A stretch of 64,000 bases of DNA from Methylocapsa sp. S129. Lineage in GTDB: Bacteria; Pseudomonadota; Alphaproteobacteria; Rhizobiales; Beijerinckiaceae. The position numbers and the translations under genes were made by a program. Under the pieces are notes generated by a model that saw only the letters and a program-made list of their open reading frames with translations, did no database searches and was not told the DNA's origin. The stretch spans positions 1 to 64,000 of the forward strand of contig NZ_LMUI01000050.1 in the NCBI RefSeq assembly GCF_009765995.1. The letters are read 5' to 3'. Each line of letters starts with the position of its first letter. The first letter of the stretch is position 1. This document shows positions 28,641 to 39,578 of the stretch, one piece after another.

Positions 28641-29582
28641 TCAATACCGGATCCGGGGATCGAGGACCAGGTACAGCAAATCGATAGTCAGGTTAATCAC
28701 GACATAGGTGAGTGAAAACAGCAGAACCACCGCTTGAACCGTCGGATAGTCGCGCGCCAATACCGCGTCGACGGTCAGACGACCCAAGCCGGGAATATTG
28801 AAAACACTCTCCGTCACGACGACCCCGCTGATCAGCAATGCGATGCTGACGCCGATCACTGTGACGATCGGCACGGCGGCGTTACGCAACGCATGGCGCA
28901 CGAGGACCTTCATCGACGACAAACCCTTGGAGCGCGCGGTGCGAACGTAATCCTCGTTGAGCACCTCCAGCACGCTGGTGCGCGTCATCCGCGCCAGAAG
29001 CGCGATATAGACGATCGAAAGCGTAATCGACGGCAGTATGAGCCGGTAGATGAATCCGCCAAACCCATCCGATAGCCTTTGGTAGCCCTGTACGGGAAAC
29101 CAACCCAGTTTGACCGAAAAGACATAGATCAAGAGATAGCCGATCACGAAAACCGGCGCCGAGAAGCCGAGCACCGAGAATCCCATCACGACACGGTCGA
29201 CCCACGAGCCCTGTCGGTAGGCGGCCAACGCGCCGAGCGGCACCGATATCACGGTGGCGAGGATGATCGTCAGCACAGCCAGAGCCAACGTCGGCTCCAG
29301 ACGATCGACGATCAGCGAAGCGACCGTTTTCTTGTAGAAGAACGATTCGCCGAAGTCGCCCACGACCATTTTGCCGGCCCAGATGAAAAACTGGGCGGCG
29401 ATCGGCTGATCCAGGCCGAGTTGCGAACGAATTTGCGCGATGTCTTCGCTCGAGGCCGAGTTGCCGGCGATCACCGCCGCGGGGTCGCCGGGAGTCAGCC
29501 GCAACATCAAGAACACCAGCACGCCGACGATCAAAACCACCGGCACGATCGCGGCAATCCGCCGGCACAAGTACATCAGCAT
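28641..29582 (-). CDS. Dipeptide ABC transporter permease (DppB-like), second system
   Basis: A 313-residue permease: N-terminal span, LRLTPGDPAAVIAG, QLGLDQPIAAQF, the EAA-type loop EDYVRTARSKGLSSMK and C-terminal spans ending VLDPRI. GAGGAC lies upstream of the ATG. It forms the channel with the adjacent DppC-like protein. Confidence 0.92.
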   Translation of the reverse strand: MLMYLCRRIAAIVPVVLIVGVLVFLMLRLTPGDPAAVIAGNSASSEDIAQIRSQLGLDQPIAAQFFIWAGKMVVGDFGESFFYKKTVASLIVDRLEPTLALAVLTIILATVISVPLGALAAYRQGSWVDRVVMGFSVLGFSAPVFVIGYLLIYVFSVKLGWFPVQGYQRLSDGFGGFIYRLILPSITLSIVYIALLARMTRTSVLEVLNEDYVRTARSKGLSSMKVLVRHALRNAAVPIVTVIGVSIALLISGVVVTESVFNIPGLGRLTVDAVLARDYPTVQAVVLLFSLTYVVINLTIDLLYLVLDPRIRY

Positions 29583-29609
29583 GATGACGTCCTCAGCCGC
29601 GCGTTCCGT

Positions 29610-31199
29610 TCAGCCGCCTGCCTTTTCGACGTTCCAGAAGACGGCGACCGGCGCCGCGATCACGCCGGTGATAGTCTTGCGCATCGCATAGGGTTGGTAC
29701 CATTGACCGATATTGATGTAGGTCGGATATTCGGCCTCCCGAACCTGCACCGCATCGACGATCGCCTTCTGCTTGGCCGGATCAATCTCACGCGCGAAAT
29801 CAGCGCGCAGTTTTTCGAGTTCCGGGTCGCAGGGCCAGCCGAACGGCGCCTTATCGCAACTGGCGTTCACGAAAGCTGAACTGACCGGGTTCAAAATATC
29901 GGCCGCCACCCAACTCGTGAGCATCGCATTCCAGCCCCCTTTGTCTGGCGCATCCTTCTTCGTGCGCCGGGCCACCACCGTCTGCCAGTCCATCGACTGC
30001 ATGTCGACCTTCATGCCGATTTTTTCCATTAACGACTTCGCCACAGGCGCCAGATTGGTCAACGTCCCCAAATCGGTCGATTGCAGCAACACCACGGGCT
30101 CGCCGTCGTAGCCGCCTTCCTTGAGCAACTCGCGCGCCTTCTTGAAATTCGACTCAAGCTTGTCCGTCATGCCAGCGTCCGAAGCGAACGGCATGCCGCA
30201 CACAAAGAGGGCCTTGCATTCCTTGTAATAAGTGGGATCGCCGATCGTCGCCTTCAGGAAGTCCTCCTGATTGAAGGCGTAAAGCAGCGCCTGGCGAATT
30301 TTTGGATTGTCGAACGGCTTGTGCAGAACGTTGAAGCGAAAGGCGTACTGATAGCCCAAGGGATTGCCGTCGACCAGCTTGAGGTCTGGGCTTTTTGTGA
30401 TCTCCGGCAGCAGATCGATCGACGGCTGCTCGATGAAGTCGATTTCGCCAGCCTTGAGCGCGTTGACCGCAGTCTGCTGGTCGGTCATCACGATCCATTC
30501 AACCCGGTCAAGCTTGACGACCTTGCCCCCAGCCATCGCGGAGGGCGGCTCCGACCGCGGTTTATATTTGTCGAACTTCACGAAGACAGCCTTCACGCCA
30601 GGCTTCCATTCATCCGTCTTGAATACGAACGGGCCGGAACCGATGTAATCCTTGATCTGTTCGTTCGGCGGCGTGTCGGCGACTCGTTTGGGCATGATGA
30701 AGGCGGGATTTGACGAAGGCTTGCCGAGACCTTGCAGCATGAGACCGGTGGCTGCGTTGAGGCTGATGGTAAAGGTCTTGGCGTCGACGACTTTCATCTC
30801 TTTGACGAAGGTCATCAGCATCTGGCCAACCGCGTCCCTCGCGCCCCAACGCTTGATCGAGGCGATGCAGTCTTCCGAAGTCACAGGCGCGCCGTCATGG
30901 AACAGCAACCCATCGCGCAACGTGAAAGTCCACGTCAGATTATCGGCGCTCACCGAATAGGTGTCGACCATCTGCGGCTTGATGTCGCCCTTCGCATCCA
31001 TCGCGAACAGCGTATCGTAGACCATGTATCCATAGTTGCGAACGATATAGGCCGTGGTCCAGATCGGATCGAGAATCTTCAAGTCGGACTGCATCACGGC
31101 GTGCAAAGTTGTCTGCGCGTTGGCGAGCGCGGGAGCAGCCAAGCAAATGGCCGCCGCTAACAAAACGGTTGCACGTTTGCGCGTGGATTCTAAGAGCAT
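29610..31199 (-). CDS. Peptide ABC transporter substrate-binding protein, second system
   Basis: A 529-residue exported SBP_bac_5 protein. Signal peptide: RKRATVLLAAAICLAAPALANAQ in overlapping parts, ending with an ANA cleavage site. The mature part opens TLHAVMQSDLKILDP. The start at 31199 is chosen because GGGGAG precedes it. It is the first gene of an eight-gene minus-strand operon (binding protein, DppB, DppC, DppDF, amidase, M20, M81, M20) and is divergent from a second amidase gene, so the 450-base gap probably holds both promoters. Confidence 0.92.
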   Translation of the reverse strand: MLLESTRKRATVLLAAAICLAAPALANAQTTLHAVMQSDLKILDPIWTTAYIVRNYGYMVYDTLFAMDAKGDIKPQMVDTYSVSADNLTWTFTLRDGLLFHDGAPVTSEDCIASIKRWGARDAVGQMLMTFVKEMKVVDAKTFTISLNAATGLMLQGLGKPSSNPAFIMPKRVADTPPNEQIKDYIGSGPFVFKTDEWKPGVKAVFVKFDKYKPRSEPPSAMAGGKVVKLDRVEWIVMTDQQTAVNALKAGEIDFIEQPSIDLLPEITKSPDLKLVDGNPLGYQYAFRFNVLHKPFDNPKIRQALLYAFNQEDFLKATIGDPTYYKECKALFVCGMPFASDAGMTDKLESNFKKARELLKEGGYDGEPVVLLQSTDLGTLTNLAPVAKSLMEKIGMKVDMQSMDWQTVVARRTKKDAPDKGGWNAMLTSWVAADILNPVSSAFVNASCDKAPFGWPCDPELEKLRADFAREIDPAKQKAIVDAVQVREAEYPTYINIGQWYQPYAMRKTITGVIAAPVAVFWNVEKAGG

Positions 31200-31650
31200 T
31201 GACTCTCCCCTTTCACCTGCGACGCCCGCGAACAAATTCACATTCATTTGAGTGGCCACAAGCGATGGACAGCACGCATTTGCGCCCCAAGATCGAGCAA
31301 CATCGAGTCAGCCGCGTTCCGGCTGAGGCGATGCGAGCCTGCAACGCCGGCCAGTTAGCAGCGCCCGCAGCGCTATGCGAGTTTCATGCCAGTTTCCAAC
31401 TCATTGCCAGCCCACGGCCGGAGGCGATTCGCTTCGATGACTTCGTCGCCCGCCCCTTTGCGATTTATCGATTTGAAAGTCCTCGGACTCGGCCTTGCGA
31501 AAGCGACGATTTGCCGCAATGCAATGTAACCCGACACCTGTCACCGCGTCTCCGCTGAAGCGATGGCGTCCAAACCGAACACCCGGCCTTGAATCACCTC
31601 GGGTTGTTCATCTAGGCTCCACGCATAATCTGAAAGTGAGCGACGCGAAT
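31200..31650. promoter_or_regulatory. Divergent intergenic region between the binding-protein and amidase genes
   Basis: A 451-base non-coding stretch between two divergent genes. It must contain the promoter of the second Dpp operon and possibly that of the amidase. I see no confident -35/-10 pair, operator palindrome or small gene; open frames across it lack family features. Confidence 0.4.
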
Positions 31651-33126
31651 ATGAAATTGGCGATGAGCTGGGACGAGTGGGCCGATCACGACGCCGTAGC
31701 GCTGGCTACCCGCGTCCGAAAGGGAGAGGTGACACCCGCCGAGCTGGCGGCCCAGGCCGCCGCCGGCATCGCCAGGATCAATCCAGCCCTCAGCGCCGTT
31801 GTCGAGGTGTTTGACGATGTAGTGGACGACCCGTTGAAGGATGGGATGAACGCCGGCGGCGCCTTCGCCGGCGTTCCCTACCTCATGAAAGATCTCGGCC
31901 CGACCCTGCAGGGGCGCCTACAGGAGATGGGTTCGCTGCTCATGCGGGGCAACCGCGCCAAGGCGGACAGCCACCTCACTGGCAGGATCCGCCAGGCCGG
32001 GCTGAACATCGTTGGGCGCACCACCACGCCGGAATTCGGCGTCTGCAGTTCGGCCGAGAACCCGGCGGTCTATATCACGCGCAACCCCTGGGACTTGGAC
32101 TACACGACATGCGGCTCTTCCGCCGGCACGGCGGCGATAGTAGCGGCCGGCGCCCTCCCCATCTCGCACGCCACCGACGGTGGCGGCTCCATTCGCATCC
32201 CCGCCGGGGTGAACGGCAATATCGGCCTCAAAGTGTCGCGCGGCGTGTTCTCCATCGCGCCGAACGCGTCGGACCTGACGGGACTTGTCTCGATCCAGGG
32301 CTGCCACACCCGCACCGTGCGCGACACGGCGGCCTTCGTCGATAGCTGCCGTGGCGGAGCGCCGGGCGAGTTCATGCCCTATTGGCTGCCGGCCGAGCCG
32401 TACTCCGATCTCATCCAGCGCGATCCGGGCCGCCTTCGCATCGCGCTGTCGCACGAGTGGGGCGACTACCGCGCCACGCCGCAAATCGTGGCGGAGTTGG
32501 AGCGGGTCGGCCGCTTCCTCGAAGGTTTGGGCCATCACGTCGATTGGGCGCTCCCCGCAGTGGATTTTCGTGTCGCCTTTGCCGCCCAGACGACCTGCTA
32601 CATCAGCAATTTCGCACAGACCATCGCCAACTTGCTCGTCCAGCTAGGACTCGACCGGCCGCCCGTCGATTTGGTCGAGCCTGTGAACGTCAAGATCTGG
32701 GAAGCTGGCCTAAACGCCTCCTATGCGGAGCGGGCGCGGATGCAGGCGGTGTTCAATACGACGTCCCGCGCCTTCGGGGCCTTCTTCGAGGATTGGGACA
32801 TCATCCTGACCCCGATCACGGCGCTCCCCACCCCGAAGATCGGCGCTACGGAATATCTGACGACCAGCGACAATCCGTCGGTGCTCGACTGGTTCGGCAA
32901 TCTCTGGCGCAATTTCGCCTATACGCCGCTTGCCAATCTCTGCGGCATCCCGGCCATTTCCTTGCCGCTCGCCGAACAGGAGAACGGATTGCCGCTGGGC
33001 ATCCAGGCGCAGGCGCGCCAGGCCAATGATGGGCTGCTGCTACAATTGGGCGCCCAGATTGAGCGTGCGATCGACGGTCGGTGGAACGCCGGACGGCTGC
33101 CGCGCGTGCATGTCACCGCCGATTGA
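31651..33126 (+). CDS. Amidase-signature enzyme, second copy
   Basis: A 491-residue amidase-signature hydrolase with Lys in VPYLMKDLGPT, CGSSAGTAAIVAAG, and the Ser-rich HATDGGGSIRIPAG. It is diverged from the amidase at 24535 (different spacing and C-terminus), so the two are old paralogues. The ATG at 31651 is used; the Shine-Dalgarno sequence is weak, and an in-frame ATG at 31663 is possible. It is divergent from the second Dpp operon and may share its regulator. Confidence 0.92.
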   Translation: MKLAMSWDEWADHDAVALATRVRKGEVTPAELAAQAAAGIARINPALSAVVEVFDDVVDDPLKDGMNAGGAFAGVPYLMKDLGPTLQGRLQEMGSLLMRGNRAKADSHLTGRIRQAGLNIVGRTTTPEFGVCSSAENPAVYITRNPWDLDYTTCGSSAGTAAIVAAGALPISHATDGGGSIRIPAGVNGNIGLKVSRGVFSIAPNASDLTGLVSIQGCHTRTVRDTAAFVDSCRGGAPGEFMPYWLPAEPYSDLIQRDPGRLRIALSHEWGDYRATPQIVAELERVGRFLEGLGHHVDWALPAVDFRVAFAAQTTCYISNFAQTIANLLVQLGLDRPPVDLVEPVNVKIWEAGLNASYAERARMQAVFNTTSRAFGAFFEDWDIILTPITALPTPKIGATEYLTTSDNPSVLDWFGNLWRNFAYTPLANLCGIPAISLPLAEQENGLPLGIQAQARQANDGLLLQLGAQIERAIDGRWNAGRLPRVHVTAD

Positions 33127-33724: not shown

Positions 33725-34036
33725 TCATATCTCGACAAACACGCGTTTGTTTCCGACGCGCACGGGATAGGTTCTGAGGTTTACGCAGACGGGCGCGCCC
33801 TTCGCCTCGCCGGTCTTGTAGTTGAAGCGGCCATTGTGCTTGGGACATTCGATGATGTCGTCCATCACGAGGCCGTCGGCCAGATGCACCTTTTCATGCG
33901 TGCACAAGCCGTCCGTTGCGAAGAATTCGTCGTCCGGGCTGCGGTAAATGGCGAATGTCCTGCCGCCATGATCAAACCGGATCGCCTCTTCGTTTTCTAT
34001 GTCATCCGCCGAATAGGCGTCAACCCACTGCGCCAT
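33725..34036 (-). CDS. MocE-type Rieske [2Fe-2S] ferredoxin
   Basis: A 103-residue soluble Rieske ferredoxin. Cluster ligands: Cys45 and His47 in LCTHEK, Cys64 and His67 in ECPKHNGRF. Size and pattern match the MocE-type ferredoxins that pass electrons to oxygenases. The ATG at 34036 is chosen because GGGG stands eight bases upstream. It is the last gene of the ABC-importer/hydroxylase operon and probably feeds electrons to the membrane hydroxylase encoded at its start. No ferredoxin reductase gene is in the window. Confidence 0.9.
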   Translation of the reverse strand: MAQWVDAYSADDIENEEAIRFDHGGRTFAIYRSPDDEFFATDGLCTHEKVHLADGLVMDDIIECPKHNGRFNYKTGEAKGAPVCVNLRTYPVRVGNKRVFVEI

Positions 34037-34112
34037 CTGCACCACCCCGGTGAATTCGAATTTCGAGAACGGCGCCGGCGGAATTTCTCACCCTTGCCTT
34101 GAGGCGCCGCGG

Positions 34113-34931
34113 TCATCCCCCGACGCGCGGCGGATGACCTTCGTGTTTTGTCATGTAGCTCTCGATTTCGGCCTCGAGCTCGGCCATCTGCTCGCCGCCA
34201 GCCATCAGATCGGTGATCTCTTCGCGGCTCTTCTCTCCCTTGCGGAAGTCGGCGGCCTTCGAGCCACGGATCGGGACGGCGAAATGGTCGCCCACCGTCA
34301 GGGCATGGACGACATTGTGGGTGATGAAGATAACGGCGATGCCTTTCTGACGCGCTTGCAGGACGATGCGCAGAACATGCGCCGCCTCCTTGACGCCGAG
34401 CGCGGCGGTCGGTTCGTCCAGGATCAGCACGCTCGCGCCGAAATGGACGGCGCGGGCGATCGCCAGGGCCTGGCGTTCGCCCCCCGACAGGCCGCCGACG
34501 AGGCGGTTGCCGTCGTCGATGCGCGTGATCCCGAGTTGCCGCATTTCTCTGACGGCGATCTCATTGGCCCGCTTGCGGTCGAAGATGACGAGCGGCCCCC
34601 AGCGCTTTGTCGGCTCGGCCCCGACGAAGAACGAGCGTCCGATGCTCATGAGCTGAAATGTTCCGCCAAATTGGTGGACCGTTGCGATCCCGTGGTCGCT
34701 GGCGTCGCGGGGACTGTCGAATGAGACGGGCTTGCCGTCCATCTCCATGACGCCGGACGTCGCTTTGTGGACGCCGGAGAGAATCTTGATGAGCGTGGAC
34801 TTGCCCGCGCCATTGTCGCCGAGCAGGCATAGCACCTCGCCGCGGTTCACGTCGAGCGAAATGTCGCGCAGCACGTCGATCGGACCGAACGACTTATTGA
34901 TTCCTGTCAATTTGAGGAGGGGAATGGTCAT
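34113..34931 (-). CDS. Sugar ABC transporter ATPase (single-domain, FrcA-like)
   Basis: A 272-residue ATPase: Walker A GDNGAGKSTLIK, Q-loop region, signature LSGGERQALAIARA, Walker B VLILDEPTAALG and H-loop FITHN. It has only one nucleotide-binding domain, like FrcA, unlike two-domain RbsA, so it must act as a homodimer. The start is an ATG overlapping the permease stop (ATGA); the open frame further upstream is antisense to the permease. Likely ligand class: monosaccharide or cyclitol. Confidence 0.92.
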   Translation of the reverse strand: MTIPLLKLTGINKSFGPIDVLRDISLDVNRGEVLCLLGDNGAGKSTLIKILSGVHKATSGVMEMDGKPVSFDSPRDASDHGIATVHQFGGTFQLMSIGRSFFVGAEPTKRWGPLVIFDRKRANEIAVREMRQLGITRIDDGNRLVGGLSGGERQALAIARAVHFGASVLILDEPTAALGVKEAAHVLRIVLQARQKGIAVIFITHNVVHALTVGDHFAVPIRGSKAADFRKGEKSREEITDLMAGGEQMAELEAEIESYMTKHEGHPPRVGG

Positions 34932-35998
34932 GAGCGCGTCCTCGTTTTCGTACGTGCGGCGTAGGTCAGCGCCATGTTGCGGAACGTGTTGTTCATGACG
35001 ACGGCCAGAAGCAGCAGGATGCCGATGATCAGGCTGGCCCAATTGGCGTTGAAGCCCGTGTAGAATATGCCTTGGTTGACGACGGAGAACGTCACGGTGC
35101 CCAGCACGATGCCGACCACCGATCCGTATCCGCCCGTGAGCAGCACGCCGCCGACGACGACGGCGATGATCGAGTTGAAGATGAAGGACTGCCCCGCGGC
35201 CACTTGCGCGCTGTTGTAGAGGATCGCCTGCGACAGGCCGACGAAAGCGGCGCACAGGCCGCTGCCCATGTAGAGCGCGATCGTCAGTCGGTCCGTCGGG
35301 ATGCCCGCGTTGCGGGCGCTCACGCTATCCCCGCCAACGGCCAGGATCCAATTGCCGTAGCGGGAGAGATTCAGGATGTAGCCGACGATCGCCACGATGG
35401 CGATCCACCAGAAGAGCGTCACTTCGAACTTGCCGCCGATATAGTCGCCCAAAAGCAGCTTGGCGATGGGCCCGCTCTTGAGCGCAACGCTCGTGCTTCC
35501 CGTCAGAATGATGGAAAGGCCAAGCGTGAGACCCGCCAACGCGAATAGCGTCGCCAATGTGACCACGAAGGATGGCACCCTGGTCCGGATCACCAGGAGA
35601 CCGTTGACGAAGCCGACGACGAGGCCGAGGCCGAGAGAGGCGAGGACTCCGACGATGATCGGGGCATGGAAGTGGCCGGAGATGATGGCGACCGTCATGG
35701 AGCTGGCGGGCACCATCGAGCCGACGGAGAGATCGAGCTGCCCGGCGATCATCAGCAGCCCAACCGGAAGCGCAATGATCCCGAGTTCGGCGGCGACATT
35801 GAGCCAGCTCGCGGCACCGCCGACGGACAGAAAATCCTCGCCGCCGAAGATCGAGAAAAAGACGAAGACGGCGATCAGGCCGATGACCGAGCCCATCTCC
35901 GGCCGACGCACGAGGCTGCCGAACGAGGGCCATTGCGAGCGCGAGGCGAGCGGCGCGATCGCGGCCTCGGAGGGCTGCATGGCTGTTTCGGATTTCAT
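34928..35998 (-). CDS. Sugar ABC transporter permease (RbsC/FrcC family)
   Basis: A 356-residue permease with about nine hydrophobic segments and the RbsC-family features PVGLLMIAGQLDLSVGS, GFVNGLLVIRTRVPSFVVTL and GGVLLTGGYGSVVG. The start at 35998 is preferred because GGGGG lies eight bases upstream; an ATG two codons earlier is too close to it. A hairpin separates it from the binding-protein gene. Confidence 0.92.
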   Translation of the reverse strand: MKSETAMQPSEAAIAPLASRSQWPSFGSLVRRPEMGSVIGLIAVFVFFSIFGGEDFLSVGGAASWLNVAAELGIIALPVGLLMIAGQLDLSVGSMVPASSMTVAIISGHFHAPIIVGVLASLGLGLVVGFVNGLLVIRTRVPSFVVTLATLFALAGLTLGLSIILTGSTSVALKSGPIAKLLLGDYIGGKFEVTLFWWIAIVAIVGYILNLSRYGNWILAVGGDSVSARNAGIPTDRLTIALYMGSGLCAAFVGLSQAILYNSAQVAAGQSFIFNSIIAVVVGGVLLTGGYGSVVGIVLGTVTFSVVNQGIFYTGFNANWASLIIGILLLLAVVMNNTFRNMALTYAARTKTRTRS

Positions 35999-36079
35999 GG
36001 ACATGGCCCCCGAGTCTTATGGCCTGAATAGGGAACGGTTCGCGCCGAGGTCCGATGGCTGACGGCCGCGATGGGGAAA

Positions 36080-36111
36080 GTCCGGCCCAGGGATGCTCTC
36101 TCGGGCCGGAC
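36080..36111 (-). terminator. Intercistronic hairpin after the sugar-binding-protein gene
   Basis: A perfect nine-base-pair stem, GTCCGGCCC (36080-36088) with GGGCCGGAC (36103-36111), lies 16 bases downstream of the binding-protein stop on the minus strand and is followed by TTTCCCC. It fits a partial terminator or 3' stabiliser that keeps binding-protein mRNA more abundant than permease mRNA. Confidence 0.6.
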
Positions 36112-36127
36112 GGTCAGTTTGCGGCGC

Positions 36128-37114
36128 TTAGCGGGCGCCCGCCGCGGCGCCGGGGATCGTCGCGTCCGCGTTTGCCGCGTCGACGATCCCCGGTCCGGTC
36201 AGCACCGGTTTCGTTGGAAGGTCGAGGCCATAGGCGACGAAGCCGTTCAGCAGAGACACGGCAAGGTAGCCTTGCAAGTAGGGCTGCTGATCGATCGCGA
36301 ACAATTGCTTGCCATCCTTGATGCGGTTCAGGCCGGTTTCGTCCATATCGAACGAAGCGAGCTTGACCTTGTCGCCGACGCCGGCCTGCGCAATGGCGTT
36401 GGCGGCGCTGTTGGCGTCACCGGCGCTGATGGTGATGGCGCCGTCAATGGTTTTGTCTTTCAATAGAGCGGCCTTGATGGCCTCGGCGACCGCGGTCGGG
36501 TTGCCGAAGCTTGAAGAAGGCAGCGGCAGTTGGCTTGATTTGCCGCCGTTCTTGCCCATGGCGTCGGCGATGCCCTTGCAGCGGTCTTCGGTGTTGGTGG
36601 CGCCCGGCAGTGTGTTGATGCAGAGCACGTTCTTGGCGCCGTGGCTGCCGTAATATTGGCCGCCGCCAAGGCCAGCCGCGTATTCTTCGTTACCGACATA
36701 GTTCATGGCGCCCAGCCGCTTGGCCGCATCCATCCCGCCGGAATTATAGATGATCAGCGGAACATGCGCGGCGACAACCTCTTTGAAAGCATCATCCATC
36801 GCCTCGGGGACCCAGTCCGGGCCAACGATGGCGTCGGGATGTTGGCTGAGCGCGGCCCGGATGAGCTTGGCTGCGTCCGGGCCCAAATTATCGTAGGTCT
36901 GCGGACCGAGCCAGATCACCGAGCCGCCCGACGCCTTAACAATCAGGCCGGCTTCGTCGGCGCCCTTCTTGACCTTCGACCAGAACGGGTCGTCCGCCTT
37001 GCCTCCGATAACGAAGATTTTGGCGCCATGGGTCTGCGCCATTGCGACGTTAAAGCTTGTCGCCATCAGCGCGACCGTGGCTATCGCCCTCGCGAAATCC
37101 TTCATGCATTTCAT
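36128..37114 (-). CDS. Sugar/cyclitol ABC transporter substrate-binding protein
   Basis: A 328-residue Peripla_BP_4-type protein. Signal peptide with an AMA-Q cleavage site near residue 26, then KIFVIGGKADDPFWSKV. Characteristic C-terminal segments include AIDQQPYLQGYLAV. GAGGAG precedes the ATG. It belongs to the ribose/fructose/inositol-binding group, which includes rhizopine-binding MocB. The cyclitol reading rests mainly on the moc-like neighbours. Confidence 0.9.
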   Translation of the reverse strand: MKCMKDFARAIATVALMATSFNVAMAQTHGAKIFVIGGKADDPFWSKVKKGADEAGLIVKASGGSVIWLGPQTYDNLGPDAAKLIRAALSQHPDAIVGPDWVPEAMDDAFKEVVAAHVPLIIYNSGGMDAAKRLGAMNYVGNEEYAAGLGGGQYYGSHGAKNVLCINTLPGATNTEDRCKGIADAMGKNGGKSSQLPLPSSSFGNPTAVAEAIKAALLKDKTIDGAITISAGDANSAANAIAQAGVGDKVKLASFDMDETGLNRIKDGKQLFAIDQQPYLQGYLAVSLLNGFVAYGLDLPTKPVLTGPGIVDAANADATIPGAAAGAR

Positions 37115-37167
37115 TTTTGTCTCCTCTCCCCAGTTGCGGTCCTCTGACCGATTTATTGAATTGACCG

Positions 37168-38214
37168 TCAGCTTGTTGTTGACGAAGTCGGCGCACCTCC
37201 CTCGGCGGCGGCCTTGGCGTTGAGACGCGCCCGCTTTTGCTCGAACCGCGCCTGCATCAGCGCGTCGCCTTCCTTCGTACCGTCGTGCAAGGTGCCGAAC
37301 CAGCGATCGAGCGGGAGCACGCCGTCGCCGCCATAGTTCACTTCGAAATATTTGTGGTGCAGGTAGTGCGCCCAGGCGTGGCTATCGAGCGCCGACTCTT
37401 CCGTGAGTTCGAGCCTGTCGAATCCGATATGGCCGTTCAGCGCGCCAAACCCGGCGACATGGAGCTGGAACAGAGCCACGATGGGATTGGAGGGGATGAT
37501 GAGATGCCATAGCGCGACGGCGTGATAGAGGAACGCCTCGATTGGATGCATCGACAGCGAGGACCAGGGCGAGGGATTGATCGAGTTGTGGTGGACCGAG
37601 TGAACCCACCGATAGAGCGGCGCCCAGTGCATCGCGCGATGGATGAAGAAGAAATGCGCCTCATGGATCGCCGGAGCGATCAGCACGAGTGCGGCGAGAT
37701 ACACCGGATGATCCGACCATTTCAGCCAGGGCGCAAACCCGTTGGCGAAAGCCCAAAGTATGAAAACTTCGACCGCGGTCCATAGCGGTATCGAGATGAG
37801 ATAGCTGCGCAGAAAATTATCGATGTTCTGGCTCTTGAACCAGAAGACGTCGGACGGGTGATCGGCAGGAAACCTGGCGTTGAATTTGAAGCGCGCGCCT
37901 TGCTTGCGCTTGACGTAGTAGAACAGCTCGACGGACCCATAGAGGACGAAGATCGCCGCTGCGTTCACGGCATAGAGCCACAGCGCCCAGCCCCAACTTA
38001 TCGCCTTCATCGTCTCGACGTCGGGCACGACGAACCGCCAATAGGCGAGCGCGGTCGCCATGTGGAAGGCGTTCCACGGCCAGATGTAGCCGGGGATCCA
38101 GGCGATGATCTTCGTGAGACGGGGCGGCCACGCCCACAAAGGCGCGATCTCCACTCTGGCGCTTGGCGTATAGTCGCCTCGCTTGTTGCGGGCGCCGAAT
38201 TTAAGGTCGTCCAT
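37168..38214 (-). CDS. Sterol-desaturase-family (fatty-acid hydroxylase) membrane di-iron oxygenase
   Basis: A 348-residue integral-membrane protein with the di-iron histidine boxes of this superfamily: HEAHFFFIHR (His184, His187, His192), HSVHH (205-209) and HYLHHKYFEVN (283-293), between several hydrophobic segments. It should use O2 and electrons to hydroxylate or O-dealkylate a substrate. The start at 38214 has GGAGG ahead of it. It is the first gene of a five-gene operon with a sugar ABC importer and a Rieske ferredoxin, which suggests the imported compound, not a membrane lipid, is the target. That link is inference. Confidence 0.88.
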   Translation of the reverse strand: MDDLKFGARNKRGDYTPSARVEIAPLWAWPPRLTKIIAWIPGYIWPWNAFHMATALAYWRFVVPDVETMKAISWGWALWLYAVNAAAIFVLYGSVELFYYVKRKQGARFKFNARFPADHPSDVFWFKSQNIDNFLRSYLISIPLWTAVEVFILWAFANGFAPWLKWSDHPVYLAALVLIAPAIHEAHFFFIHRAMHWAPLYRWVHSVHHNSINPSPWSSLSMHPIEAFLYHAVALWHLIIPSNPIVALFQLHVAGFGALNGHIGFDRLELTEESALDSHAWAHYLHHKYFEVNYGGDGVLPLDRWFGTLHDGTKEGDALMQARFEQKRARLNAKAAAEGGAPTSSTTS

Positions 38215-38549
38215 GTCAAGCCTCCGCCAATCTGGATGGCGTTTTCTGTGCATCTCGGAGGGAATTCAGGTTCCGTGCGCCGCGGCGGGCCGGGCGTGAA
38301 GACGCGCCCGCCCTGCGCGAAACCAGCCATGCCGGCGGTTCGCTTGCTCGCGCTGCAAAGCTTGGAAGTCCTGAGCTTTCCTCCGTCAGCCTCCGGTCGA
38401 AGCTCTTCGCCGGACGCCCTGCAATCTGCGGTGAGATAATCGGCTTGACCTGAATCAAATCAAGTGCAGAAATCGGTTATGGAATAATTCGTCTCATCGA
38501 TGTCAATTGTGACTGCGGATATGAAATAAAATGAGATAATTAAAATCCT
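38215..38549. promoter_or_regulatory. Divergent promoter region between hydroxylase operon and lacI-type gene
   Basis: A 335-base gap between divergent start codons. The half nearest the regulator (about 38460-38549) is clearly AT-rich compared with the surroundings, as expected for promoters and a LacI-family operator. I could not pick one operator with confidence; GAATAATTC near 38482 is a weak palindrome. Confidence 0.45.
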
Positions 38550-39578
38550 ATGGCCCGTCCCACCATCAACGATCTCGCCAAAGCCGCCGGTGTATCCGTT
38601 TCCACGGTCAATCGGATCGTCGGCGGTGTCGGCAGCGTACGTCAGGCCACGATGCGGCGCGTCAGGGACGCCGCCGCCGAGATCGGTTTCTATGGGCTCG
38701 GCTCGATTGAGAACCGTCTGGGCGCGGCGCGTCCCAAATATCGCTTCGGGGTGCTCCTTCAGCAGCCGACGCGGACCTTCTACCAGAACCTCGCCCAAGC
38801 CTTGCGATCGGCGGCGGAACGATTGACCGACTGCGACGTCGATCTTCAGATCGAATTTCTCGAAGAGCTTTCGCCCCAGAACATTGCAGCGCGGATGCTC
38901 GCGCTCGGCGAAAAATGCGCCGCGATCGGCGTCGTCGCCGCCGTTCATCCTCTCGTCACGCAGGCCGTGGAAACCCTTCAACAGCGCGGCATTCCCGTCT
39001 TCGCCCTCATTTCGCAACTCGCCGCCACGGGCAACGTGCATTACGTCGGTCTCGACAATTGGAAGGTCGGGCGAACCGCGGCCTGGGCGGTCGAGCGCAT
39101 CTGCGCGGCGCCGGGCAAGCTCGGCATTCTGGTCGGAAACCATCGCTATCGCTGTCAGGAAATGAACGAGAGCGGCTTTCGCTCCTACTTTCGCGAATAC
39201 GCGCCGGCGTTCACGCTGCTGGAGCCGCTGACGACCTTCGAGTCGAGCGCCGTCGCCGAGGAGATGACGGAGCGGCTATTGCGCGAGAACCCCGATCTTG
39301 CCGGCCTCTACGTCGCCGGCGGCGGAATCAGCGGCGCGCTCGCGGCGCTTCGCGCGAGCGACAGGGCCGGAAAAATCGTCGTCGTCGGATATCAATTGAT
39401 GGACAACACCCGGGCCGCCCTGCTCGACGGAACGCTGACGCTGGTCATCTCGCACCCGCTGACCCACCTGTCCGACGAATTGGTGCAGGGCATGATCAGT
39501 GCCTCCAACGACAGATCCAAGGGTCGAACTTACACTTGCGTTCTGCCTTTCGACATTTACACACGCGAGAACATCTAG
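38550..39578 (+). CDS. LacI-family transcriptional regulator
   Basis: A 342-residue regulator. The N-terminal helix-turn-helix reads TINDLAKAAGVSVSTVNRIV, followed by a periplasmic-binding-protein-like sensor domain (KYRFGVLLQQ through to VVVGYQLMDN). It is divergent from the ABC/hydroxylase/Rieske operon and almost certainly controls it in response to the imported sugar or cyclitol. Confidence 0.93.
   Translation: MARPTINDLAKAAGVSVSTVNRIVGGVGSVRQATMRRVRDAAAEIGFYGLGSIENRLGAARPKYRFGVLLQQPTRTFYQNLAQALRSAAERLTDCDVDLQIEFLEELSPQNIAARMLALGEKCAAIGVVAAVHPLVTQAVETLQQRGIPVFALISQLAATGNVHYVGLDNWKVGRTAAWAVERICAAPGKLGILVGNHRYRCQEMNESGFRSYFREYAPAFTLLEPLTTFESSAVAEEMTERLLRENPDLAGLYVAGGGISGALAALRASDRAGKIVVVGYQLMDNTRAALLDGTLTLVISHPLTHLSDELVQGMISASNDRSKGRTYTCVLPFDIYTRENI

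Follow-up and report, generated by a model that had tools for sequence, protein, structure and literature searches.

A LacI-linked membrane oxygenase operon of Methylocapsa sp. S129 and its possible role in the oxidative demethylation of O-methylated cyclitols

The catabolism of rhizopines is encoded by the locus mocCABRDEF, which passages of two papers describe for Sinorhizobium meliloti L5-30 and Rhizobium leguminosarum (PMC5789663, PMC10107442). A second described system, alkylglycerol monooxygenase of the fatty acid hydroxylase family, cleaves ethers by hydroxylating the carbon beside the ether oxygen, and its product is an unstable hemiacetal, according to the relevant passages of PMC3617469. 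In this study, we analyzed a stretch of 64,000 nucleotides of the Methylocapsa sp. S129 genome (contig NZ_LMUI01000050.1; hereafter, the window) that contains a Moc-like locus of six genes at positions 33725–39578. Five minus-strand genes encode a membrane di-iron oxygenase (OXY), a periplasmic binding protein (SBP), the permease (PERM) and ATPase (ATP) of an ATP-binding cassette (ABC) importer, and a Rieske ferredoxin of the MocE family (FDX); a plus-strand LacI gene is divergent from them. The coordinates of the open reading frames (ORFs) and the Pfam cut-offs, all of which were passed, confirmed the preliminary description, in which an importer, a MocE-like ferredoxin, and a membrane di-iron oxygenase had been placed in one operon beside LacI. 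We propose, with a probability of about 0.57, that the substrate of this operon is an O-methylated cyclitol, for example pinitol, ononitol, or a related methyl-inositol, which would be taken up and then oxidatively demethylated. Legumes are rich in methyl-inositols, and the operon is a concrete candidate for the removal of the methyl group of pinitol; if the proposal is true, the range of PF04116 extends from lipids to small hydrophilic ethers. Among the matches listed in the open-licence literature, the operon was nowhere described and no bacterial enzyme that demethylates pinitol appeared, which is weak evidence of novelty.

Conservation of the operon and its linkage to inositol and one-carbon genes

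A scan of genome contigs identified at least 525 stretches that encode relatives of the oxygenase, and the best 80 were analyzed, so the counts given here describe near relatives; these 80 loci come from non-independent genomes, and several of the contigs are short. The five-gene linkage recurred in these relatives: SBP was present in 75 loci, LacI in 74, PERM in 73, ATP in 69, and FDX in 66. Additional genes were also linked, encoding a TIM-barrel protein (64 loci), a PanB-like protein (59), the inositol dehydrogenase IolG (44), a reductase (17), PurU (13), and FolD (6). When only the 60 loci whose downstream sequence extends for 9 kb or more were counted, the corresponding numbers were 56 for the TIM-barrel protein, 52 each for the ferredoxin and the PanB-like protein, 41 for IolG, and 13 for PurU or FolD. 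Because most of the 80 nearest relatives, from both Alphaproteobacteria and Betaproteobacteria, carry the gene set, we consider that the linkage is not due to chance. Among the carriers, which are bacteria of soil and water, are Mesorhizobium, Rhizobium, Shinella, Labrys, Gemmobacter, Tabrizicola, and Rhodobacter, together with the betaproteobacterial genera Rhodoferax, Leptothrix, and Aquabacterium, in which the gene orders differ. A tblastn search matched the oxygenase in 119 plasmid records, mainly rhizobial. Its occurrence at the family level is patchy (15 of 298 genomes, including that of the window, with matches at E ≤ 1e-10, some of them short or weak), and at the order level it was found in 29 of 397 genomes, again with its own genome included, at E ≤ 1e-90. 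A plasmid of Gemmobacter fulvus has the order LacI, oxygenase, SBP, permease, ATPase, MocE ferredoxin, TIM-barrel protein, PanB-like protein, and IolG, and the operon of Rhizobium multihospitium (L047) runs from the oxygenase through SBP, permease, ATPase, ferredoxin, TIM-barrel protein, PanB-like protein, IolG, and reductase to PurU and FolD. A diverged group (L030, L033, and L031, from Shinella and from pSymA of S. meliloti) has the arrangement LacI–oxygenase–ferredoxin, and the Shinella loci continue with an SBP of another kind, a reductase, and an isomerase-like protein; in S. meliloti 1021, no query genes beyond these initial three were matched.

OXY passes the gathering score of PF04116 (Table 1). 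In the tblastn alignments, its histidines H205, H209, H218, H221, H222, H236, H275, H296, H299, and H300 are kept in 80 of 80 loci, H197 in 78, and H292 in 75; L107 was left out of the oxygenase alignment (wrong-frame ORF, 26% identity). The earlier suggestion that the oxygenase belongs to a subfamily other than that of MocD was right and even understated, as no homology was detectable between OXY and the MocD-type protein of the same genome (best BLASTP E-value, 0.098; hhalign probability, 1.7%). Because the two proteins do not align, there is no OXY–MocD phylogeny. SBP, PERM, and ATP have the domains of a CUT2 sugar ABC importer (Peripla_BP_4, BPD_transp_2, and ABC ATPase, respectively). The only NCBIfam match of note for SBP was the model of the MocB rhizopine-binding protein (NF052284), with 178.4 bits against a cut-off of 420 and 20.7 bits for the runner-up. 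The ligand of 4ru1 is myo-inositol.

The genes linked in relatives point to inositol and one-carbon (C1) metabolism. All three of the linked IolG proteins tested scored above the cut-off for inositol 2-dehydrogenase (424.8, 428.1, and 416.4 vs. 355). L041, L043, L070, and L078 carry another dehydrogenase, and for that of L041 the nearest model was myo/D-chiro-inositol, at a sub-threshold score (265.9 vs. 540). The reductase of the relatives consists of Pyr_redox_2 and Reductase_C domains and is nearest to the ferredoxin reductases of Rieske dioxygenases, below their equivalog cut-offs. Both PurU and both FolD proteins tested, including those from the betaproteobacterial locus L110, passed a curated cut-off, and the loci bearing PurU or FolD include the betaproteobacterial L110 and L112. 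The genome of the window contains one PurU above the cut-off in 6.9 Mb; as a rough estimate, and if the carriers are alike, the probability of PurU lying within 21 kb by chance would come to some 0.3% for each locus, with the reservation that the loci are not independent. FolD and PurU jointly convert methylene-tetrahydrofolate to formate, and their linkage suits a demethylation because folate-captured formaldehyde needs to be disposed of as formate. The PanB-like protein is a member of PF02548 (e.g., L029, 14209–15015), found in 59 of the 80 oxygenase loci and also in a few of the MocD type. Its identification as a true ketopantoate hydroxymethyltransferase was rejected, given that the one protein tested scored 85.2 and 111.2 bits against cut-offs of 207.55 and 272, respectively. 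When this protein was aligned with 3vav, 3ez4, and 1m3u, it had a G in place of the D of their DLPF motif, a residue that serves as a metal ligand. That the PanB-like protein handles a C1 unit is our guess.

Proposed function and alternative explanations

In the mechanism that we propose, SBP, PERM, and ATP would import a methylated cyclitol, and electrons would flow from NADH through a Rieske-ferredoxin reductase and the MocE-type ferredoxin to the membrane di-iron oxygenase, which would hydroxylate the methyl carbon. The resulting hemiacetal would break down, releasing formaldehyde and leaving the demethylated cyclitol. This cyclitol would enter the iol pathway via inositol dehydrogenase, the C1 unit would be captured by folate and released as formate (FolD and PurU), and LacI would detect the substrate or a product. 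The preliminary description had left the activity as O-demethylation or hydroxylation, and the substrate as methylated cyclitols or sugars; judged from the families and the linked genes, O-demethylation is the best-supported reaction, and a methylated cyclitol is the likely, if unproven, substrate. Passages of an earlier study report that pinitol was the component measured at the highest concentration in Mimosa pudica root exudate, that mocDEF homologues of Rhizobium mesoamericanum were upregulated 1.53–2.11-fold with this exudate, to which the iol genes also respond, and that a fatty-acid-hydroxylase gene on symbiotic plasmids is induced by root exudate, 27-fold in Burkholderia phymatum (PMC5789663). 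The pinitol content and the response of the mocDEF homologues and iol genes fit a methyl-inositol role of Moc-type oxygenases, and are no proof for the operon described here.

Compared with the longer operons of its relatives, the copy in the window is abbreviated, and would depend on a reductase, a dehydrogenase, and C1 enzymes encoded elsewhere. The nearest reductase in the genome is present at C23:337163–338386, downstream of a ferredoxin in a second Moc-like locus on contig C23 of this genome (L134, 6493–10381). In this locus, LacI is divergent from genes of the MocD, MocE, and MocF types, names assigned by family and gene order, and the MocD-type protein is an FA_desaturase (PF00487; 135 bits vs. 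a cut-off of 29.7). The C23 reductase is 49% identical to the Shinella reductase, and is the best candidate partner for the operon. Three MocE-family matches were found in the genome, two of them above the cut-off (the window FDX and C23:336827–337126). Genes of inositol catabolism are also present, with three IolG and two IolD above the cut-offs on contigs C27, C26, and C5, and two loci hold both iolD and iolG. One locus on C26 (L135, 4736–19084) has IolD, an IolG above the cut-off, and further dehydrogenases of the MocA type; as judged by eye, it also encodes a TIM-barrel protein and an importer of the sugar type.

We also examined 13 MocD-type loci, i.e., L134 and 12 of 22 other matches, some on short contigs. 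These contained the ferredoxin in eight cases, a LacI relative in four, the PanB-like protein and the reductase in two each, and IolG in one. Both a LacI gene and a PanB-like gene were present in the MocD-type loci L081, L163, and L170. In Tabrizicola oligotrophica (L081, 17173–20578), a locus with LacI divergent from MocD, MocE, and PanB-like genes directly adjoins the PF04116 operon, so that both types of oxygenase are neighbours. In another genome (L173/L174, G841:C2:520000–556000), three PF04116 oxygenases and one of the MocD type lie within about 21 kb, in a cluster that also holds the PanB-like protein, PurU, ferredoxin, reductase, IolG, and an importer; a fourth PF04116 copy is located on contig C1 of this genome. 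The oxygenase family may have diversified by substrate. These arrangements suggest that a single module can work with either of two unrelated oxygenases, a minority pattern among the MocD-type loci. We put forward, tentatively and with more doubt than confidence, a broader proposal: bacteria would widely break down pinitol and other O-methyl-inositols by a route so far undescribed, in which PF04116 and PF00487 oxygenases replace each other beside a constant set of LacI, MocE ferredoxin, reductase, and IolG, and the released C1 unit is handled by a recruited PanB-like protein whose active-site positions are altered.

Several observations weigh against the demethylation of a methylated cyclitol. 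Neither PurU nor FolD was found in 67 of the 80 related loci (some on short contigs), and both were absent from all 13 MocD-type loci, which slightly lowers the odds of our reading; most of those 13 also lack PanB-like and LacI relatives. The window itself lacks the TIM-barrel protein, the PanB-like protein, IolG, the reductase, PurU, FolD (the latter two searched for at E ≤ 1e-4), and MocD, and a search of the whole genome, made without a positive control, found no PanB-like gene. The score of SBP below the rhizopine-binding-protein cut-off belongs here, as does the AlphaFold model of OXY, which was weak (pLDDT 65) and gave no match at E ≤ 0.001 in a PDB search. Among palindromes of 12–18 bases in 78 intergenic regions, none was common to more than seven, so no widely shared operator was found; one 14-mer palindrome was common to five of the 78 regions, compared with at most one in shuffled sequences, and the kinship of the loci may explain it. 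The region between OXY and LacI in the window contains weak palindromes only. Finally, no published experiment on this operon was found in the open-licence literature, and the PF04116 members covered in passages of PMC3617469 are known for lipid substrates.

The chief rival to a cyclitol substrate, which we consider unlikely, is that the same chemistry acts on an O-methylated sugar derived from a plant, algal, or bacterial polysaccharide. SBP and the transporter are of the generic CUT2 type, many of the carriers belong to the Rhodobacteraceae and some to the Betaproteobacteria, which are not known as symbionts of legumes, and the TIM-barrel partner gave its top score, sub-threshold, with hydroxypyruvate isomerase (110.5 vs. 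353.45). The presence of several diverged paralogues of the oxygenase in a single genome also suggests more than one substrate. However, the linked IolG exceeded the inositol 2-dehydrogenase cut-off in every case tested, and the one NCBIfam match of note for SBP was to a rhizopine-binding protein, both of which favour a cyclitol. Less probable again is another action of the oxygenase, such as N-demethylation of an aminocyclitol, hydroxylation of a C-methyl group or ring carbon, or desaturation. Membrane di-iron enzymes catalyze diverse C–H hydroxylations and desaturations, and FolD and PurU would likewise follow an N-demethylation; yet the C1 genes linked to the oxygenase in 13 of the 80 loci would have no use in ring hydroxylation or desaturation, and no amine-handling gene was recognized by eye in the 25 largest clusters of neighbouring genes, several of which are antisense ORFs. 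A lipid, sterol, or hopanoid hydroxylase to which a sugar importer is adjacent by chance, as the names given to PF04116 proteins in Pfam and GenBank and the known lipid-active members (passages of PMC3617469) would have it, is very improbable, because the linkage of importer, ferredoxin, and inositol dehydrogenase is kept across two classes and different gene orders, and some MocD-type loci have partner genes in common with it.

Gene layout of the locus

The spacing of the five same-strand genes (Table 1) is operon-like: OXY and SBP are separated by 53 bases, SBP and PERM by 123, and ATP and FDX by about 70, and PERM and ATP overlap by four bases (ATGA). Homologues align with OXY from M14 (base 38214), which is probably its start, and suggest that FDX probably starts at the ATG at 34036; both starts give proteins shorter than the longest ORF. 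Base composition was tried as a sign of horizontal transfer and set aside as uninformative, the GC content being 0.618 in the operon and 0.625 in the window. In the neighbouring regions, a peptide-type ABC importer with a binding protein (28641–31259, minus strand) and an amidase-like gene (approximately 31651–33126, plus strand) were recognized by eye.

Table 1. Features of the oxygenase locus in the window, with profile scores and cut-offs in bits
Feature	Position	Strand	Basis
Membrane di-iron oxygenase (OXY), FA_hydroxylase/sterol-desaturase type	37168..38253	-	PF04116, 66.2 (cut-off 31)
Periplasmic sugar/cyclitol-type binding protein (SBP), distantly MocB-like	36128..37114	-	PF13407 (Peripla_BP_4), 118.7 (35.1)
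ABC permease (PERM), CUT2/BPD_transp_2 type	34928..36004	-	PF02653, 139.8 (26.8)
ABC ATPase (ATP), single-domain, CUT2 type	34113..34931	-	PF00005, 102.2 (25)
Rieske [2Fe-2S] ferredoxin (FDX), MocE family	33725..34045	-	PF00355, 67.4 (20.3); TIGR02377, 178.2 (136.15)
LacI-family regulator, divergent	38550..39578	+	LacI HTH PF00356, 41.2 (27); PF13407, 99.7 (35.1)
Divergent promoter region, operon vs. regulator	38254..38549	.	Gene coordinates

Comparison with known systems

The comparison with the rhizopine locus is based on family profiles and gene content, not on the sequences of characterized Moc proteins. The Moc-like reading of the preliminary description held for the architecture, including the IolG, TIM-barrel protein, reductase, and, in a minority, C1 genes of relatives, and failed for SBP, which was matched by the rhizopine-binding-protein model only below its cut-off. 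The two loci share the combination of an oxygenase and a ferredoxin of the MocE family (TIGR02377), to which an FAD reductase is added in relatives; an inositol-type dehydrogenase and a TIM-barrel protein are further similarities, found in relatives of the operon. In contrast, the window oxygenase belongs to PF04116 and not to PF00487, to which the MocD of the rhizopine locus is assigned by way of the MocD-type protein of the same genome. The regulator is LacI rather than MocR (GntR subfamily), and permease and ATPase genes lie inside the operon, with PanB-like, PurU, and FolD genes added in relatives. There is no MocF-type reductase in the window, and a reductase occurs in only 17 of the 80 related loci. 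Because SBP, the oxygenase, the regulator, and the local absence of a reductase all set it apart, the operon cannot be equated with the rhizopine system. In Alphaproteobacteria, inositol import and catabolism by the iol pathway are not known to involve an oxygenase, a ferredoxin, or C1 genes.

The C23 locus of the same genome is similar in its divergent LacI (43% identical to that of the window) and ferredoxin (72% identical to FDX), and it has a Rieske-ferredoxin reductase. It differs in that its oxygenase is of the FA_desaturase type, without detectable homology to OXY, and its adjacent binding protein is not matched by SBP. Alkylglycerol monooxygenase shares with OXY the histidine-rich fatty acid hydroxylase motif (eight-histidine), whereas it acts on alkylglycerol lipids with tetrahydrobiopterin and not with a Rieske ferredoxin, as described in passages of PMC3617469.

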